Below are positions 49,893-57,142 of a stretch of DNA of 64,000 nucleotides, one piece after another. Positions within the stretch are counted from its first letter, which is position 1; each line of letters begins with the position of its first letter. A program made the translations under genes and the position numbers. The stretch lies in assembly GCF_007845645.1 (NCBI RefSeq), contig NZ_VCQV01000021.1, forward strand, positions 1 through 64,000, written 5' to 3'. This DNA is from Leekyejoonella antrihumi. GTDB taxonomy: Bacteria; Actinomycetota; Actinomycetes; Actinomycetales; Dermatophilaceae. The notes beneath the pieces were generated by a model that was not told the origin of the DNA, did no database searches, and was given only the letters and a program-made list of their open reading frames with translations.

Positions 49893-50597
49893 TCACCTCG
49901 ATGTCTTCTTCGGGTTGGTCTTCGGGTTCTGGCTCGACCTGGACTTGTCGGAAGCGCCCTTGGCCGATGGCTTGCTCGTCGTCTTCGGAGTTGAGGTGGT
50001 GCCTGACTTGCTCTTTGCCTTGCTGTCCTTCGCCGTGCTGTGGGCCGCACCGTCCGTCGACGGCTTCTTCGCGGGCTTCGGCTTGACCGCCACGAGGCCG
50101 GCGGAGGCCGCCGCCTGAGCGGCTCCCGCCGCCTGCGAAGCGGGTGTCGTCGGAAGCGTTCCCACCGTAAACGGTCCAGCCTGCGAGGAGTCCTTCGCCA
50201 CGCCGAGCACCTTGCCATCCGACTTGCGGACGTACCGAATCTTGCTCGCCGGACGAAGTCCGAGGGACTGCGCCTTGAGCGCGAGCTGCTGCGGGGCGCT
50301 CACGTTGTCCAGGTCCGATTGCAGCTCCTGCTGGGTGTCCGACAGGGTGTTGGACTGCGCCTGCAGCCGGTCCATCGTGAAGGACTGCTGGGCCCGCACA
50401 GTGTTGAGCAGGAGCAGCACGACCAGACCGCTGACGAGCAGCAGCAGACAGGCCACCACGAAACCGACCCCTTCGGTCGCGTGGGTGTCGGCCGGCTGCA
50501 CGACGCGCAGGCGAGGGGTCGCCTGCTGGGCCTTCGGATGCGTCGTGGACGGGCGCGCCGGACGCGTCCGCTGTCGAACCGCGGTCTGCTGGCTCAT
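49893..50597 (-). CDS. ftsL: FtsL-like division protein
   Basis: This 234-residue bitopic protein has a basic cytoplasmic tail, one helix ([20 protein letters not shown]) at residues 43-65, then a coiled-coil stretch ([20 protein letters not shown]) and a long Lys/Ser/Thr/Pro-rich extracellular tail of about 90 residues. Position between rsmH and ftsI and topology mark it as FtsL, which scaffolds FtsW-FtsI with FtsB and FtsQ. Its ATG overlaps the rsmH stop by 4 nt. The long low-complexity tail is unusual; sequence identity alone would not name it. Confidence 0.85.
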
Positions 50598-51580
50598 GAT
50601 GTCGATCCCTTCGTCGAGCGAACTCGGGTGGCGGCGCGCAGCCGGGCGGATGCTGCACGCGGGTTGTCGAGGGTCTCCTGCGCGGTCGGGGCCTGCCCGC
50701 CGCGGACGAGAAGCTTCAGGTAGGGGGCCTGCTCAGGCAGTTCGACCGGCAGCCCCGGGGGCGCCGAGCTGGTGGCGCCGGCGGCGAGGACACGCTTGGC
50801 GATGCGGTCCTCCAGTGAGTGATAGGACAGCACCGCGACCCGACCACCGACGCACAGGTGGTCGATCGCACGAGGAAGCGCGGCACGCCACGAGTCGAGC
50901 TCTCCGTTGACCTCGATGCGCAGGGCTTGGAAGGTGCGCTTGGCCGGGTGGCCGCTGCTGCGCTGTGACGCGGCGGGTATGCAGTCCCGCAGCAGCTCGA
51001 CGAGCCGCCCCGATGTCGACCACGGCGTCTCCTCCCGCTCTCGCACGACGGCGCGGGCGATACGTCGAGCGAACCGCTCCTCGCCGTACTCCCGCAGGAT
51101 CCGTTCGAGCTCGGCCACCGGGTAGGTGTTGAGGACGTCGGCCGCGGTGCGGCCGCTCCCCTGGTCCATCCGCATGTCCAGTGGTGCGTCCTTGCTGTAG
51201 GCGAAACCCCGGTCGGCTTCATCCAGCTGCAACGAGGAGACCCCGAGATCGAAGAGCACCGCGTCGACCTCATGCACGCCCTGCTCGTCGAGCCGGTCGA
51301 ACGCCTCGTCGTAGACGGCATGCACCGGACGGAACCGATCGGCATACCCGCCCAGTCGCTCGCCGGCCAGCGTCAACGCCTCGCCATCCCTGTCGACGCC
51401 GTACGCGGTCGCCTCGGGGCATCGGTTCAAGATCGCCTCGGTGTGCCCGCCCATTCCGAGCGTGCCATCCACGAAGACCGCGCCGGGTCGCTCGAGCGCC
51501 GGCGCCAGGAGCTCGACGATCCGTTCGCGAAGCACCGGGGTGTGCCGCAGTTCGGCAGACCCTCGGCTCGAGCTCATGAA
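50594..51580 (-). CDS. rsmH: 16S rRNA m4C1402 methyltransferase RsmH
   Basis: This 328-residue enzyme methylates 16S rRNA. The SAM-binding motif [16 protein letters not shown] and acidic DRDGEAL are clear, followed by [34 protein letters not shown] and [17 protein letters not shown] 51580 has AAAGGTGA just upstream and is preferred over an ATG-like codon 19 codons earlier. It lies 188 bases after mraZ. Confidence 0.94.
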
Positions 51581-51709
51581 GTCACCTTTACGGAGCAGTC
51601 GTGCGGCGGCGGGCGGATGAAGAGTTTGCGATTCCATTGCAGGAGAGGTTGAGTCCCGGGAGACTGTTCTGACTCTAGGTCCCCAGCCGCTCTCTCGCCG
51701 GACGACGCT

Positions 51710-51732
51710 CCGACACCGGGGAAGTGTGTCGG
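51710..51732 (-). terminator. Hairpin in the mraZ-rsmH gap
   Basis: CCGACAC (51710-51716) and GTGTCGG (51726-51732) form a perfect 7-bp stem with a 9-base loop in the 188-bp gap, the largest in the upstream dcw run. It could be an attenuator or a processing site. Confidence 0.35.
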
Positions 51733-51768
51733 CCCGTTGTGCGCGACGAAGCGGATGGAGGCCAAGTG

Positions 51769-52203
51769 TCAGAAGAGCCCGCCAGGGATCACCTCCTCAC
51801 CCTGCTCGGCGAAGTCGTCCTCGGTGGCGGCCAGGAAGTCGTTCCACGAGGTGGTGTCCCACACCTCGATGCGATTCCCGGTCCCGATGACGGTGCACTC
51901 GCGCTCCAGCCCGGCATACTCACGAAGCACGGATGGCACCGTGACCCGTCCCTGCTTGTCCGGGATCTCGTCGGACGCCGCCGACAGCAGCACCCGCTGG
52001 AAGTTGCGCACTGCCCGGTTGGTCACCGGCGTGTTGTTCAGCTCGACCGCAAGACGTTCGAACTCGACCAGCGGAAAGACATAAAGGCACCGTTCCTGCC
52101 CTCGGGTGATGACCAGCCCACTGGCGAGCTTGTCGCGAAACTTGGCCGGCAGGAACAGCCGACCCTTGTCGTCCAGGCGTGGATGGTGAGTCCCCAAGAA
52201 CAT
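51769..52203 (-). CDS. mraZ: Transcriptional regulator MraZ
   Basis: This 144-residue protein is the AbrB-fold repressor that heads the dcw cluster. Its two repeats are visible: [20 protein letters not shown] and [20 protein letters not shown], each with the conserved DxxGR and P motifs. The start at 52203 follows a strong GGGAGGTG; nine upstream codons are rejected. It probably represses its own promoter through the box array 40 bases upstream. Confidence 0.94.
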
Positions 52204-52243
52204 CGGTTGCACCTCCCGCCCTGACCACAATTGCTCCGTCGTT

Positions 52244-52279
52244 CACCAGCGCGCACCACTTTACTCCACTTCTCACCAC
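52244..52279 (-). promoter_or_regulatory. MraZ box array (four repeats, 10-bp period)
   Basis: On the minus strand, reading toward mraZ, GTGGTG, GTGGAG, GTGGTG and CTGGTG start exactly 10 bp apart (plus-strand positions 52274, 52264, 52254, 52244), each separated by 4 bases. MraZ proteins are known to bind arrays of short G-rich direct repeats with one-helical-turn spacing just before mraZ. Position and periodicity make this the likely autoregulatory site. Confidence 0.75.
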
Positions 52280-52590
52280 ATGTCGCCTCATCTTTGCCCG
52301 ACAGCCCACGCAACCCGGCAAAGTTGCTGGTCAGAGTCGTGGAGCGGGGTGGAGGATCGTCGCTCGGCCCACCTCCGCAATCCCGTGTTCCGCACCGGTA
52401 GCGCCGACGCCGGCCCCGCCCGGCCGGCATCGAGCGCCGCGATCGGCGCCCCGAACGCCGTGCCGTGGGGCGAAGTGGAGCAGCCGAGGGAGAAATGGTC
52501 CCGCCGCGAGCACCTGGTGCCTACTCTGGATAGGCACCGTCCCGGTGGGTTCATGACCTGCTCCGACATCCGATCAGGCAGGATCGAGGC
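52280..52590. other. Divergent promoter region between mraZ and moxR
   Basis: This 311-bp gap separates the minus-strand dcw cluster from the plus-strand MoxR operon. Apart from the MraZ boxes at its edge, I see no gene or long repeat. It must contain promoters for both directions. Confidence 0.5.
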
Positions 52591-53598
52591 ATGCACTCAT
52601 TTGCAGGCGAGAGACCGGGTCCGAGTTCGCAGCTGCCGCCGATCGGGCTGGATGAGGTTCGAGAGGTAGCCGCGGCCATCCACCAGGGCGTCTCCTGCGT
52701 CATCGAGGGCAAGCCGGAGGTCATCCGTACCGCGGTGATCGTGCTGCTTGCCCAGGGCCATCTGCTTATCGAGGACGTTCCCGGTGTGGGCAAGACCATG
52801 CTCGCCAAGGCACTCTCCCGCTCCATCGACTGCCGGATGCGACGAGTGCAGTTCACCCCGGACCTGCTACCCAGTGACATCACGGGGGTCAGTGTCTTCA
52901 ACCAGGACTCGCACGGCTTCGAGTTCCGTCGCGGTGCGATCTTCGCGAACATCGTCGTCGGTGACGAGATCAACCGCGCCTCCCCCAAGACGCAGTCCGC
53001 ACTGCTGGAGTGCATGCAGGAGAGCCAGGTCACGGTGGACGGGACCACCTACGAGCTCGACCAGCCGTTCATGGTGATGGCGACCCAGAACCCGATCGAG
53101 ATGGAAGGCACCTTCCCGTTGCCCGAGGCGCAGCGCGACCGGTTCATGGCACGCATCTCGATGGGATACCCGACCCCCCGCTCCGAGATCGCGATGCTGG
53201 AGACCCACGGGCAGGGGCATCCGCTGGATGACCTGCAACCGGTCACCGACGCCGCGACCATCCGCAGGCTGGCCGAGCGTGTCTCGACGCTCTATGCCAG
53301 CCCGGCTCTGCGGCAATACATCGTCGACCTCGTCACGACAACGCGAAGCTCCCCCGCGCTCCGCTTGGGTGCGTCTCCTCGCGCCGCCCTCCAGCTCCTG
53401 CGTGCCTCTCAGGCACTGGCGGCCCTGGAGGGCCGAGACCACGTCATACCCGAGGACGTTCAGCAGCTGGTCGGCCCCGTTCTGGCGCATCGCGTCATCC
53501 TGAGCAGCGACGTTCAGCACCTCCACCGCCGCACCGAGGACGTGCTCGGCGAGCTCGTCGCGCACCTGCGGGTACCCACTGCCTCGCGCTCCCAATGA
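52591..53598 (+). CDS. MoxR family AAA ATPase
   Basis: This 335-residue AAA+ ATPase probably acts as a chaperone with the DUF58/VWA protein encoded next. Walker A HLLIEDVPGVGKTMLAKALS, Walker B NIVVGDEINRASPKTQSALL and the sensor ATQNPIEMEGTFPLPEAQRD are typical MoxR. It overlaps the DUF58 gene by 4 nt (ATGA). Adjacent to the dcw cluster in many actinobacteria, this three-gene unit has an unclear envelope-related role. Confidence 0.9.
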   Translation: MHSFAGERPGPSSQLPPIGLDEVREVAAAIHQGVSCVIEGKPEVIRTAVIVLLAQGHLLIEDVPGVGKTMLAKALSRSIDCRMRRVQFTPDLLPSDITGVSVFNQDSHGFEFRRGAIFANIVVGDEINRASPKTQSALLECMQESQVTVDGTTYELDQPFMVMATQNPIEMEGTFPLPEAQRDRFMARISMGYPTPRSEIAMLETHGQGHPLDDLQPVTDAATIRRLAERVSTLYASPALRQYIVDLVTTTRSSPALRLGASPRAALQLLRASQALAALEGRDHVIPEDVQQLVGPVLAHRVILSSDVQHLHRRTEDVLGELVAHLRVPTASRSQ

Positions 53599-54857
53599 TT
53601 CGTCACCGCAACAGCTCCCTCACCCAGCGTGGCCTGGTCTTCATCTCCGGCGGCGGGACCTTGGCCATCGGCGGTATCGTGCTCGGCTACGTCGACATCG
53701 CGCGGGTCGGGATGCTGCTCGTGGTGCTGCCCCTGCTCACGTTGCTGCTCAGTCGGCGTCGCTCCCCCGACGTGGAGGTCACCCGCGTCGTCGAACCCGC
53801 CACCCTCCTACCCGACCAGCGCGCCCAGGTCAGCGTGACGTTCCGCAACCCAGGGCGCCGTGCCACCAGGCTGTGCCTCGCGGAGGAGCGGATCGACTAC
53901 GTTCTCGGTGACCGGCCACGCTTCATCCTTCCCGCCCTCTACCCCGGTGCGGCGCGCCGACTGACGTATGTCGTGCGCAGCCACGTGCGCGGGCGACACC
54001 ATCTCGGCCCCATCCGGTTGCGCGAGACCGACCCGTTCGGCCTGACGACGGCGGCCCGTGAGATCCGACAGGTCGACGAGGTCCTCGTGCTTCCACGGGT
54101 CGTGCCACTCGGGGCGACCAAGCCACCGGGGTCGGGAGTGGGCAGTGAGGGCGAGGTCCCGCAGATGATTGCGCTGCACGGCGCCGAAGACGTCAGCATC
54201 CGCGCCTACCACGACGGTGACGACCTGCGGAAGGTCCACTGGCCGGCCACCGCGCACCGCGGTGAGCTGATGGTCCGCCAGGAGGAGCAGCCCGCGCGGC
54301 GATCGGCCGTGCTGCTGCTGGACAGTCGGGCCTCAGGGCACCAGGGCAGCGGCACCCGCAGCTCATTCGAGTGGGCAGTCAGCGCCGCCGCCTCGATCGC
54401 CGTCCGACTCGACGAGCTGCAGTACTCCACCCACCTGGCCACCGTGGAGACCCTGTCAGCCGAGCTGATCGACGCCGCCGCGCCGGCCGGGGACATCGTC
54501 CGATGGCTCGCGGTCGCGGGTCCCGATGAGGACCTTCAACACGAAGTCCTGGTGAACCACACGGCGGAGGTCGTCCGACTCGGTGCCATCGTCGTTGCCG
54601 TTCTGACCGACCTCGATGACGGCCGTGCGGCCCAGCTCGCCGGGCTGCGACAGGCCGGGGCGGCCGGGATCGCGCTCATCCTCGACACCCACAGCTTTAC
54701 GCACCCGAATGCCGAGACCAGCCTCGCCGCGGATGGGCTCCGCGGTCAGCTGGCCGGCGCCGGATGGCGAGTCGTCATCGTTCGCGGCGACACGGGAATC
54801 TTGGCGGCCTGGGCGACCGTGAGCAGCCGCAGCCTGCTCCGAATGGGCGCCCTATGA
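53595..54857 (+). CDS. DUF58 domain membrane protein
   Basis: This 420-residue protein has two N-terminal helices (GLVFISGGGTLAIGGIVLGY and ARVGMLLVVLPLLTLLLSRR) and a DUF58 region with GDDLRKVHWPATAHRGELMV followed by a VWA-like fold (AVLLLDSRASGHQGSG). It is the usual partner of MoxR ATPases. ATGA overlaps link it with both neighbours. Confidence 0.88.
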   Translation: MIRHRNSSLTQRGLVFISGGGTLAIGGIVLGYVDIARVGMLLVVLPLLTLLLSRRRSPDVEVTRVVEPATLLPDQRAQVSVTFRNPGRRATRLCLAEERIDYVLGDRPRFILPALYPGAARRLTYVVRSHVRGRHHLGPIRLRETDPFGLTTAAREIRQVDEVLVLPRVVPLGATKPPGSGVGSEGEVPQMIALHGAEDVSIRAYHDGDDLRKVHWPATAHRGELMVRQEEQPARRSAVLLLDSRASGHQGSGTRSSFEWAVSAAASIAVRLDELQYSTHLATVETLSAELIDAAAPAGDIVRWLAVAGPDEDLQHEVLVNHTAEVVRLGAIVVAVLTDLDDGRAAQLAGLRQAGAAGIALILDTHSFTHPNAETSLAADGLRGQLAGAGWRVVIVRGDTGILAAWATVSSRSLLRMGAL

Positions 54858-57142
54858 CTCGCGCGCGCGTCACCGAGGGGTTGCTCGCGGCACTTGGCAC
54901 CCTTGCCGCGGCCTGGCCGCTCACCACGCTGCTGACCGGCGAGCACTGGTTGTGGAGACTGATCCTGTTGGTCCTGCTGGTCAGCGGCCTGGGCATGGCC
55001 GCCCGCGCGACCGGCACCGCCCGGGGGGTCGTGGTCCTCACTCAGGTCACCGGGCTCCTGCTTGTCGTCTTCCTGCTGGACCTGGAGCAGCACCTCGGCA
55101 TGCACGCGCTCGCCCAACAGATCGCGGGCCTCATCGAGGATGCCAACCACACCCTCGTGACCTATACGGCCCCCGCGCCGGTCACTCCAGGGCTCGAGTT
55201 CGTCCTGTCTCTCATCGTGCCGACTCTCGCCATTGCGGTGGACCTGCTGGCCGTGACCTTCCGCCGGCCCGCGGCGGCCGGGATACCGCTGCTTGGCGTG
55301 TTCATGCTGTCGGCCTCGAATGCGGCCACCGGCCTCAACCCCGCATACTTCGTTGCCGTCGCCGTCATCTGGCTGTCCATGGTGGCCCACGGAAGCAGCC
55401 GGCAGATGCTCAGCTGGGCCTCCACCCGCGCCCGACCGTCGACACCGATGACCTTCGAGAACCGGTTCAACATCTCGGGGCATGCCGCGCTGGCCCGGGG
55501 GCTCGGGGTCGCCAGCCTGGTGCTGGCCCTGGTCCTACCCGCCGCGTTGCCGAGCTCCACGCCGCACTTCTTCGCCAACGGCCTGAGTCGCTCCACCGAC
55601 TCGGGTGGATCTGGGCCGGGGTCGATGTTCGGCAGCGAGGCGGACATCGCCAAGGACCTGCGGGCCCAGGGCACTGCTCCCGTGCTGGTGTTTCGGACCA
55701 ACGACGCCAGCCCTCCACCACTGCGCGTCCTGGCTACGAGCAGGTATACCGGCGGCCAGTGGAACCTGCGGCCGCCGTCGACCCATCTGGTCCGGGGTCG
55801 TGACAACACGAAACTGCAGACCGATGGCACCGCCACGACGGCAGCAAGCCAGACCTACTCCCTGCAGGTGAGCAGCAGCACGATCGGCGCGCCCCAGTTT
55901 GCGGCGCCCTTCCCCGTTCGAACCGCGAACCTCGGGTCCGTACCGTGGAGGTTCGACGGCTCCACCGGACAGATCGTGCCCTCCGGACCGGCGAGTTCCT
56001 ACTCGCTCACCTACGAGCGCCTGGGCGACGACGACCAGCCAAGCGGCAGCGGCGGGCGACCGAACGCGGCCGATGAGCTGGCTTTGCCCACGGAGGCCCG
56101 CGCGCGCGTCGTGGCTCTGGCCGAGAAGATCGGCGGACGGACGTCGTTCGACTCCGCGATCGCGATCCAGGACTATCTGCGGTCGGGGTCGTTCACCTAC
56201 TCGCTGTCCTTGGCGCCTCGGCGGAAGGCCTCCGACGGGCGGCCTCTGGACCCCCTGAGCAACTTCCTGGTCACCCGCAAGGGCTACTGCATCCAGTTCG
56301 CGACAGCCATGATCATGCTCGCCCGCGCAGATGGCATCCCGGCACGGCTGGCCGTCGGGTTCCTCCCCGGCCAGCAGGACTCGTCCGGTGCGTATCACGT
56401 CGTGAAGTCGGATGCCCACGCCTGGCCGGAGCTGTGGTTTCCCGGTATGGGATGGACCCGGTTCGAACCAACACCGGGAGCGCGATCCGGCGCCCCCCCG
56501 TTGTACGCGATCCCCACACAGCCGGATCAAGCCTTGTCATCGCCGAGCCCCAGCGCGTCGGCCCCGACGCCGAGCAGGCGTGCTCCCGTGCTGCCCGCTG
56601 CACCGACCTCCCACGCGACAACGGACAGCGGGCTCGGCGTGTGGTCCACCGTCGGCATCGGGGTGCTCGTCGCGCTGGTGATACTGCTGCTCCTGCTGAT
56701 CCTTCCAGGCTTGGCATGGGCTCGTCGGCACAGGATCGTCAGCGGATCCGCCGGCCGAACGAACCGGCTGGAGGCGGAGTGGACGGTCCTGCAGTCCCGA
56801 CTCGACGACCTCGGGATCGCCGCGCCGGACGATCGCTCCCCGCGTGCTCTTGAGGACTACTATCGCCGCCGTGGTGAGCTGGGGTCGCCACGCGACGATG
56901 ATGCCCTGCACCGCGCGGCCCGGACGCTCGAGCGGGCCCGTTACGCGCCACCAGGCGATCGGCCACAGTCGTTGGCAAAGGACTCTCAGGAGGTCCTGCG
57001 CCAGGTTCGCGCGGGCGTCCCCTCCGGTCAACGGGTGAAGGCCTGGTTGCTGCCGGCCACCGGACGCCGCGCCGTCAGCGGCGCCCTCCGGGCGGTCGCC
57101 GCCCTGCCGACCCGGCTACTTCGCCGCCGTCGTCCGGAGTAA
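54854..57142 (+). CDS. Transglutaminase-like membrane protein (DUF3488)
   Basis: This 762-residue protein starts with six or so helices (DUF3488), has a large extracellular part containing a transglutaminase-fold domain, and ends with another helix (VGIGVLVALVILLLLLILPG) and a cytoplasmic tail. The catalytic Cys479 is in RKGYCIQFATAMIMLARA and His522 in SDAHAWPELWFPGMGW; the third residue is the Glu of RFEPTP where many members have Asp. The ATG overlaps the DUF58 stop (ATGA); a longer frame upstream is rejected. It could cleave or crosslink wall or surface peptides; the substrate is unknown. Confidence 0.87.
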   Translation: MTRARVTEGLLAALGTLAAAWPLTTLLTGEHWLWRLILLVLLVSGLGMAARATGTARGVVVLTQVTGLLLVVFLLDLEQHLGMHALAQQIAGLIEDANHTLVTYTAPAPVTPGLEFVLSLIVPTLAIAVDLLAVTFRRPAAAGIPLLGVFMLSASNAATGLNPAYFVAVAVIWLSMVAHGSSRQMLSWASTRARPSTPMTFENRFNISGHAALARGLGVASLVLALVLPAALPSSTPHFFANGLSRSTDSGGSGPGSMFGSEADIAKDLRAQGTAPVLVFRTNDASPPPLRVLATSRYTGGQWNLRPPSTHLVRGRDNTKLQTDGTATTAASQTYSLQVSSSTIGAPQFAAPFPVRTANLGSVPWRFDGSTGQIVPSGPASSYSLTYERLGDDDQPSGSGGRPNAADELALPTEARARVVALAEKIGGRTSFDSAIAIQDYLRSGSFTYSLSLAPRRKASDGRPLDPLSNFLVTRKGYCIQFATAMIMLARADGIPARLAVGFLPGQQDSSGAYHVVKSDAHAWPELWFPGMGWTRFEPTPGARSGAPPLYAIPTQPDQALSSPSPSASAPTPSRRAPVLPAAPTSHATTDSGLGVWSTVGIGVLVALVILLLLLILPGLAWARRHRIVSGSAGRTNRLEAEWTVLQSRLDDLGIAAPDDRSPRALEDYYRRRGELGSPRDDDALHRAARTLERARYAPPGDRPQSLAKDSQEVLRQVRAGVPSGQRVKAWLLPATGRRAVSGALRAVAALPTRLLRRRRPE

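Follow-up and report, generated by a model that had tools for sequence, protein, structure and literature searches.

In the 64,000-nucleotide stretch of DNA analysed here (the window), the intergenic region between mraZ and a divergent moxR-type gene contains a direct array of four MraZ-type boxes and, beyond it, two pairs of such boxes in the opposite orientation. The best overall explanation, which we consider likely, is a multi-part MraZ operator, possibly bridged or looped, that would repress the dcw cluster and maybe co-control the divergent envelope genes. The array itself is very probably the operator through which MraZ represses its own synthesis. The four plus-strand boxes are present exactly as the earlier note on this DNA had claimed, with starts 10 bp apart. 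Read on the minus strand, in the sense of mraZ, the array is GTGGTG-agaa-GTGGAG-taaa-GTGGTG-cgcg-CTGGTG and ends 40 bp from the mraZ ATG (52203). Box 1, GTGGTG (plus-strand CACCAC, 52274-52279), is kept in its position in relatives; box 2, GTGGAG (CTCCAC, 52264-52269), which is directly followed by TA, and box 3, GTGGTG (CACCAC, 52254-52259), were assigned from sequence and conservation, and the degenerate box 4, CTGGTG (CACCAG, 52244-52249), from its sequence. Three of the four boxes match GTGGNG and box 4 has one mismatch, so that the array offers at least three direct repeats with a GTG-containing core at intervals of about 10 bp (three strict and one degenerate, period 10 bp). The position of box 4 is variable among 105 related loci (GTGG.G in 27,.TGG.G in 9, ..GG.G in 30 and other sequences in 39). 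A possible weak fifth box, ACGGAG (52234-52239, minus strand), lies in register with the array, and the two G of its GG are partly kept, in 80/105 and 66/105 loci.

The array precedes mraZ, at the start of the dcw cluster, in which Pfam identifies MraZ, rsmH and a PBP. The 144-aa product of mraZ (51769-52203, minus strand), the first dcw gene and the likely repressor, matches PF02381 with 126.7 bits in two stretches, in agreement with the two SpoVT/AbrB-like domains of the MraZ family. Four distinct MraZ sequences from the PDB match it (best E 4e-20), and among named relatives Flexivirga caeni has the most similar MraZ (88% identity). The next dcw gene, rsmH (mraW), was found at 50594-51637 on the minus strand (PF01795, 349 bits), where the start given is that of the ORF as listed and the true start may be further in. 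On the other side, a moxR-type AAA ATPase gene (52591-53598, plus strand; Pfam AAA_3) heads a divergent moxR-DUF58-transglutaminase run, which continues with a DUF58 gene (53595-54857) and a TgpA_N/Transglut_core gene (54764-57142), both identified by Pfam. The mraZ-rsmH junction (51657-51780, minus strand) matches the Rfam mraW leader RNA (RF01746; 43.2 bits, E 6e-7) below the gathering score of 50, which is passed in 2 of the 11 relatives searched (L034 and L050); this match would represent a second, RNA-level layer of dcw control. In an Actinoplanes locus (L066, 1566-1739) we observed a match to the c-di-AMP riboswitch (67.8 bits) upstream of mraZ.

Between boxes 2 and 3 lies a putative -10 element of the mraZ/dcw promoter, TAAAGT (52258-52263, minus strand), assigned from sequence and conservation; the T of TA and the T at the sixth position are conserved in relatives. 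A putative -35 element, GCGACA (52281-52286, minus strand), is found just upstream of box 1; it is weak in the window itself, many relatives having TTG(A/C) here, and the position reads TTG in 41/59 loci sampled across the class. A consensus scan of 52180-52620 found no promoter reaching the threshold of 9 of 12 positions, and the promoter assignment therefore rests on conservation in relatives. Beside either inverted pair, no conserved -10 was seen in the near-relative loci. To judge from the sequence, the array sets in on the upstream side of the putative -10 and extends across it.

Conservation was followed in a near and a class-wide set of relatives. The near set consisted of 110 mraZ loci (L003-L112), from which five with duplicate upstream regions were removed to leave 105, window included; these fall into 94 k-mer clusters. 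For the class-wide set 148 genomes were searched, with MraZ found in at least 131; upstream stretches were fetched from 60 of these, picked to spread across 24 families, and one locus with an incomplete upstream region (L165) was dropped, leaving 59. The core made up of box 2, TA and box 3 is kept in 103/105 near loci, window included, and the TA after box 2 in 58/59 class-wide loci; strict triples were found in 81/105 and 39/59 and strict four-box arrays in 27/105 and 23/59 loci, respectively, where all exact figures are somewhat inflated because each array was placed where the core pattern matched best. The alignment of mraZ upstream regions thus showed the boxes to be well conserved, and not poorly, as the earlier note had named as grounds for abandoning its reading. 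Its suggestion that four boxes indicate specially tight autorepression is not supported: box 4 is degenerate in the window, strict four-box arrays are common in both sets, and four repeats are described in the available part of a paper on Burkholderia cenocepacia (PMC7761207). Autorepression as such is plausible by homology.

One genus (family f17) has lost mraZ. None of its ten genomes has MraZ among the matches listed, rsmH is present in all ten, and neither direct nor inverted pairs were found in the approximately 2.6 kb around the rsmH start in any of them. A relic, GTGGACTAAAGTGACGCGAAG, in 8/10 of these genomes retains the -10 but not the boxes. In the five genomes searched for moxR, this gene is divergent, about 1.2 kb from rsmH and without pairs. 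The core is kept with mraZ and absent without it in this genus, which counts as one evolutionary event. Three further genomes (G037, G473 and G528) were considered as a second mraZ-less lineage and rejected: rsmH is missing there as well, and the absence is probably an assembly gap. Taken together, the identity of the boxes as MraZ-type, as proposed earlier, is well supported, as they lie upstream of a two-domain MraZ gene and over a promoter-like -10, are conserved, and are absent in the genus without mraZ.

The earlier note missed the two opposite-orientation box pairs in the mraZ-moxR intergenic region, which we identified by pattern match and conservation. The proximal pair, GTGGAG-cggg-GTGGAG (52339-52354, plus strand), is located 75 bp upstream of the array start. 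The distal pair, GTGGGG-cgaa-GTGGAG (52465-52480, plus strand), follows 126 bp beyond the proximal one; it is 201 bp away from the array, on its upstream side, and precedes the moxR start codon by 111 bp. Both share with the array the box sequence, the 10-bp period and a spacer bias (cgaa, gaaa, caaa), and we regard them with good confidence as candidate MraZ sites. Between the distal pair and moxR there is also a perfect 8-bp inverted repeat, GGTGCCTA-N7-TAGGCACC (52516-52538).

Among the 104 near loci with 400 bp of upstream sequence we found 118 inverted pairs, distributed over 78 loci, and 16 matches to the backward-read control; direct pairs outside the array amounted to two, in 2 of the 104 loci, with no match to the corresponding control. 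A strict inverted pair is absent in 26/104 loci. The proximal pair is found 75-79 bp from the array in 40/104 loci (in 49 at 60-102 bp), and a distal pair (distance to the array above 150 bp) in 59/104. When five genera were aligned, the conserved blocks were both inverted pairs, a TGACC-GC motif and the array, the rest being poorly aligned. Class-wide, an inverted pair is present in 22/59 loci from 10/24 families (37/59 are without a strict pair) and a direct pair outside the array in 7/59 loci, several of which extend the array directly; the controls for inverted and direct pairs gave 4 and 2 loci. A tandem arrangement was observed in Ornithinimicrobium tianjinense (L064), where four inverted pairs 23-24 bp apart (offsets of 295, 272, 249 and 225 bp) lie upstream of mraZ in addition to a proximal pair.

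Within the window, the pattern GTGGNGN4GTGGNG has four matches, all of them in the mraZ-moxR intergenic region, compared with a mean of 0.55 and a maximum of 3 in 100 shuffles. Over the whole genome the pair pattern shows no enrichment (47 matches versus 59 for the backward-read control); among these 47, the overlap of two pairs into a triple is found in the mraZ-moxR region only. A relaxed four-box pattern gave three matches, of which the sole one without mismatch is the array and the other two hit it with an offset of one box. The tighter pattern GTGG[AG]GN4GTGGAG retains 3 of the 47 pair matches, two of them in the mraZ-moxR intergenic region and the third (C54:94731) inside a 554-aa ORF. 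On these counts, a genome-wide MraZ regulon acting via such boxes is not supported in this organism.

From genus to genus the distal pair is displaced by multiples of about 10.6 bp. Its spacings to the proximal pair form classes near 104-105, 114, 125-129, 135-138, 146-148, 169, 178-180 and 202 bp. With one locus per cluster this spacing gave R=0.83 at 10.7 bp (n=30, p=0.00005, the floor of the simulation), and with one locus per mraZ group R=0.83 at 10.85 bp (n=11, p=0.0009), in a Monte Carlo test that allowed any period from 9.5 to 12 bp. The spacing between distal pair and array gave R=0.58 at 10.6 bp with looser de-duplication (n=50, p=0.00005, again the simulation floor) and p=0.02 with one locus per mraZ group (n=22). 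A held-out set of 29 class-wide inverted pairs, from which two loci identical to the first set were excluded, agreed only weakly with the phase of that first set: for periods of 10.5, 10.6 and 10.7 bp the mean cosine was 0.28 (p=0.016), 0.23 (p=0.03) and 0.10 (p=0.20), respectively. The phasing is thus strong among near relatives and marginal in the class-wide set.

We infer MraZ binding, repression, bridging and an effect on moxR from the DNA sequence, and the following mechanism is proposed on this basis. The array at 52244-52279 would be the primary MraZ operator, on which a ring-shaped MraZ oligomer might touch three or four boxes, meeting one box with each turn of the helix. In the simplest reading the ring would then cover the core promoter of mraZ-rsmH-ftsL-ftsI, block RNA polymerase and limit the synthesis of MraZ itself. 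Two inverted pairs, 75 and 201 bp upstream, would extend this operator toward the divergent moxR operon. Because the pair spacings change between genera in near-whole helical turns, we propose that MraZ bound to the array is in contact with, or bridged to, MraZ bound to the inverted pairs, giving a small loop or shared nucleoprotein complex. Such a complex could tighten repression and may couple the dcw promoter with the divergent cell-envelope promoter. For the physical bridging or looping itself our expectation is tentative and lies clearly on the lower side, and an effect of the inverted pairs on the divergent gene has, in our estimate, about an even chance.

A plain autorepressor is quite possible as well, if somewhat short of an even chance: here the array alone would matter for mraZ, the inverted pairs would be an independent operator of moxR (or murT), and their spacing would be set by the geometry of the divergent promoter and not by contact between bound complexes. 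The pairs do stand in sense orientation for the divergent gene. Strict inverted pairs are present in 68/78 loci with a divergent moxR within 800 bp versus 10/27 others (11/27 if L026 is counted, which has a short upstream region, was scored as lacking a pair and has one at 77 bp); this enrichment favours a role toward the divergent gene. In Micromonospora okii (L108), the divergent gene encodes a MurT-like ligase and is followed by a glutamine amidotransferase domain gene. This account is weakened by seven genomes in which moxR lies away from mraZ: none of their eight moxR loci has gene-facing pairs, and an inverted pair is found beside mraZ in six of them (L065, L068, L091, L098, L108 and L200, not L066). 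With unlinked moxR loci devoid of pairs, moxR as an independent MraZ target is not supported. The proximal pair, moreover, is fixed relative to the array, at 75-79 bp in the 40 loci mentioned, whereas the distal pair lies anywhere between 36 and 301 bp from the estimated start of moxR, and the phasing would be left unexplained. Since the occurrence of the inverted pairs goes with mraZ and not with moxR, and the spacing between proximal pair and array is maintained, we conclude that the inverted pairs belong to the mraZ control region; they may act on any envelope operon that happens to lie divergent to it.

It is improbable that the inverted pairs are bound by a different G-rich-binding factor working with MraZ, for example one that also reads the motif TGACCTGC. 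The window has a degenerate copy of this conserved motif, TGACCAGC (52326-52333, minus strand), between the array and the proximal inverted pair. At least 7/8 matches to TGACCTGC are found in 80/105 loci, in 68 of which the motif lies 55-56 bp upstream of the array, a constancy that would suit such a factor; a control interval reached 7/8 in 5/104 loci. A longer form, TGACCTGCGNAAAC, is dispersed, which would suit it too: the window's genome has 12 copies versus 0 for the backward control, a contrast that codon-like content may inflate, and order-wide 71/119 genomes have at least one copy, with 44 copies in one genome. Several copies of TGACCTGCGNAAAC are part of terminator-like hairpins (L252, L256, L267, L282, L285 and L288), others are not, and one copy (L278) is located upstream of a gene whose product, as we take it, begins like CarD. 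The composite of motif and inverted pair was found in 5/296 genomes across the phylum, so that its distant, phylum-level spread is thin. We rejected TGACCTGC as a second promoter, as its logo is without -10-like conservation at the right distance, and as an mraZ-specific site, given the dispersed TGACCTGCGNAAAC copies and their terminator-like hairpins. What speaks against the other factor is that the inverted pairs share box sequence, period and spacer bias with the array and are absent along with it where mraZ is absent. Chance or the composition of a G-rich strand, conserved by shared descent, would agree with the lack of genome-wide pair enrichment and with relatives that are not independent, but is very improbable in view of blocks conserved amid unaligned sequence in five genera, four pattern matches reached in none of the 100 window shuffles, and 118 inverted pairs against 16 backward controls on the same strand, in a set whose 105 loci form 94 k-mer clusters.

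Taken furthest, the multi-part MraZ operator would mean that in many Actinomycetes a bridged, looped MraZ complex represses the dcw cluster together with the divergent envelope operon, moxR-DUF58-transglutaminase or, in Micromonospora, murT-gatD. We hold this extension to be rather unlikely; if it were true, division and wall genes would share one switch, and if the array alone works, an ordinary autorepressor operator would be left. MraZ, which forms a ring-shaped oligomer, is one of the most conserved bacterial regulators. An array with phased inverted pairs provides a concrete, testable geometry for the bridging of DNA by the ring, and through this layout the division cluster may be linked to the wall genes next to it.

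In the open-licence papers searched, we found none on inverted or phased MraZ boxes. Distant auxiliary operators in helical phase are familiar from loop-forming repressors of the AraC or LacI type. The region resembles these in having phased auxiliary operators at a distance, a likeness that here is one of sequence layout, and MraZ belongs, to our knowledge, to an unrelated family. Escherichia coli MraZ is reportedly an autorepressor of mraZ and the dcw cluster that binds direct repeats (Eraso et al. 2014); its repeat sequence and the position of the repeats in the promoter differ from the window, and inverted pairs are not known to us in that system.

For Mollicutes, the available part of one paper describes MraZ as the dcw regulator, with sites that are direct repeats of AAAGTG[T/G] (PMC8475190). 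Both systems have, ahead of mraZ, direct repeats built on a GTG core, but the Mollicutes sites are AT-rich, and Mycoplasma genitalium is presented there with a single direct-repeat site and without mention of inverted phased pairs. Mollicutes MraZ is an octameric toroid according to the part available of another paper (PMC7761207), which also covers the closest counterpart of the array. The dcw promoter of B. cenocepacia has four MraZ repeats that recur every 10 bp, each of seven nucleotides and followed by a spacer of three, and its MraZ binds a dcw-promoter fragment in gel shifts (PMC7761207). Number of repeats, period and promoter are thus alike. In B. cenocepacia and E. coli, however, the repeats are placed 3' of the -10, overlapping the start site (PMC7761207), whereas the array in the window starts 5' of its putative -10 and straddles it, and inverted pairs, of which the window has two, are not mentioned in that part of the paper. 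With four-repeat MraZ sites already published (PMC7761207), the four boxes as first described are ordinary; the new part, as judged against the open-licence papers searched, is the multi-operator layout, in which an array and phased inverted pairs form a variation on the known MraZ operators.
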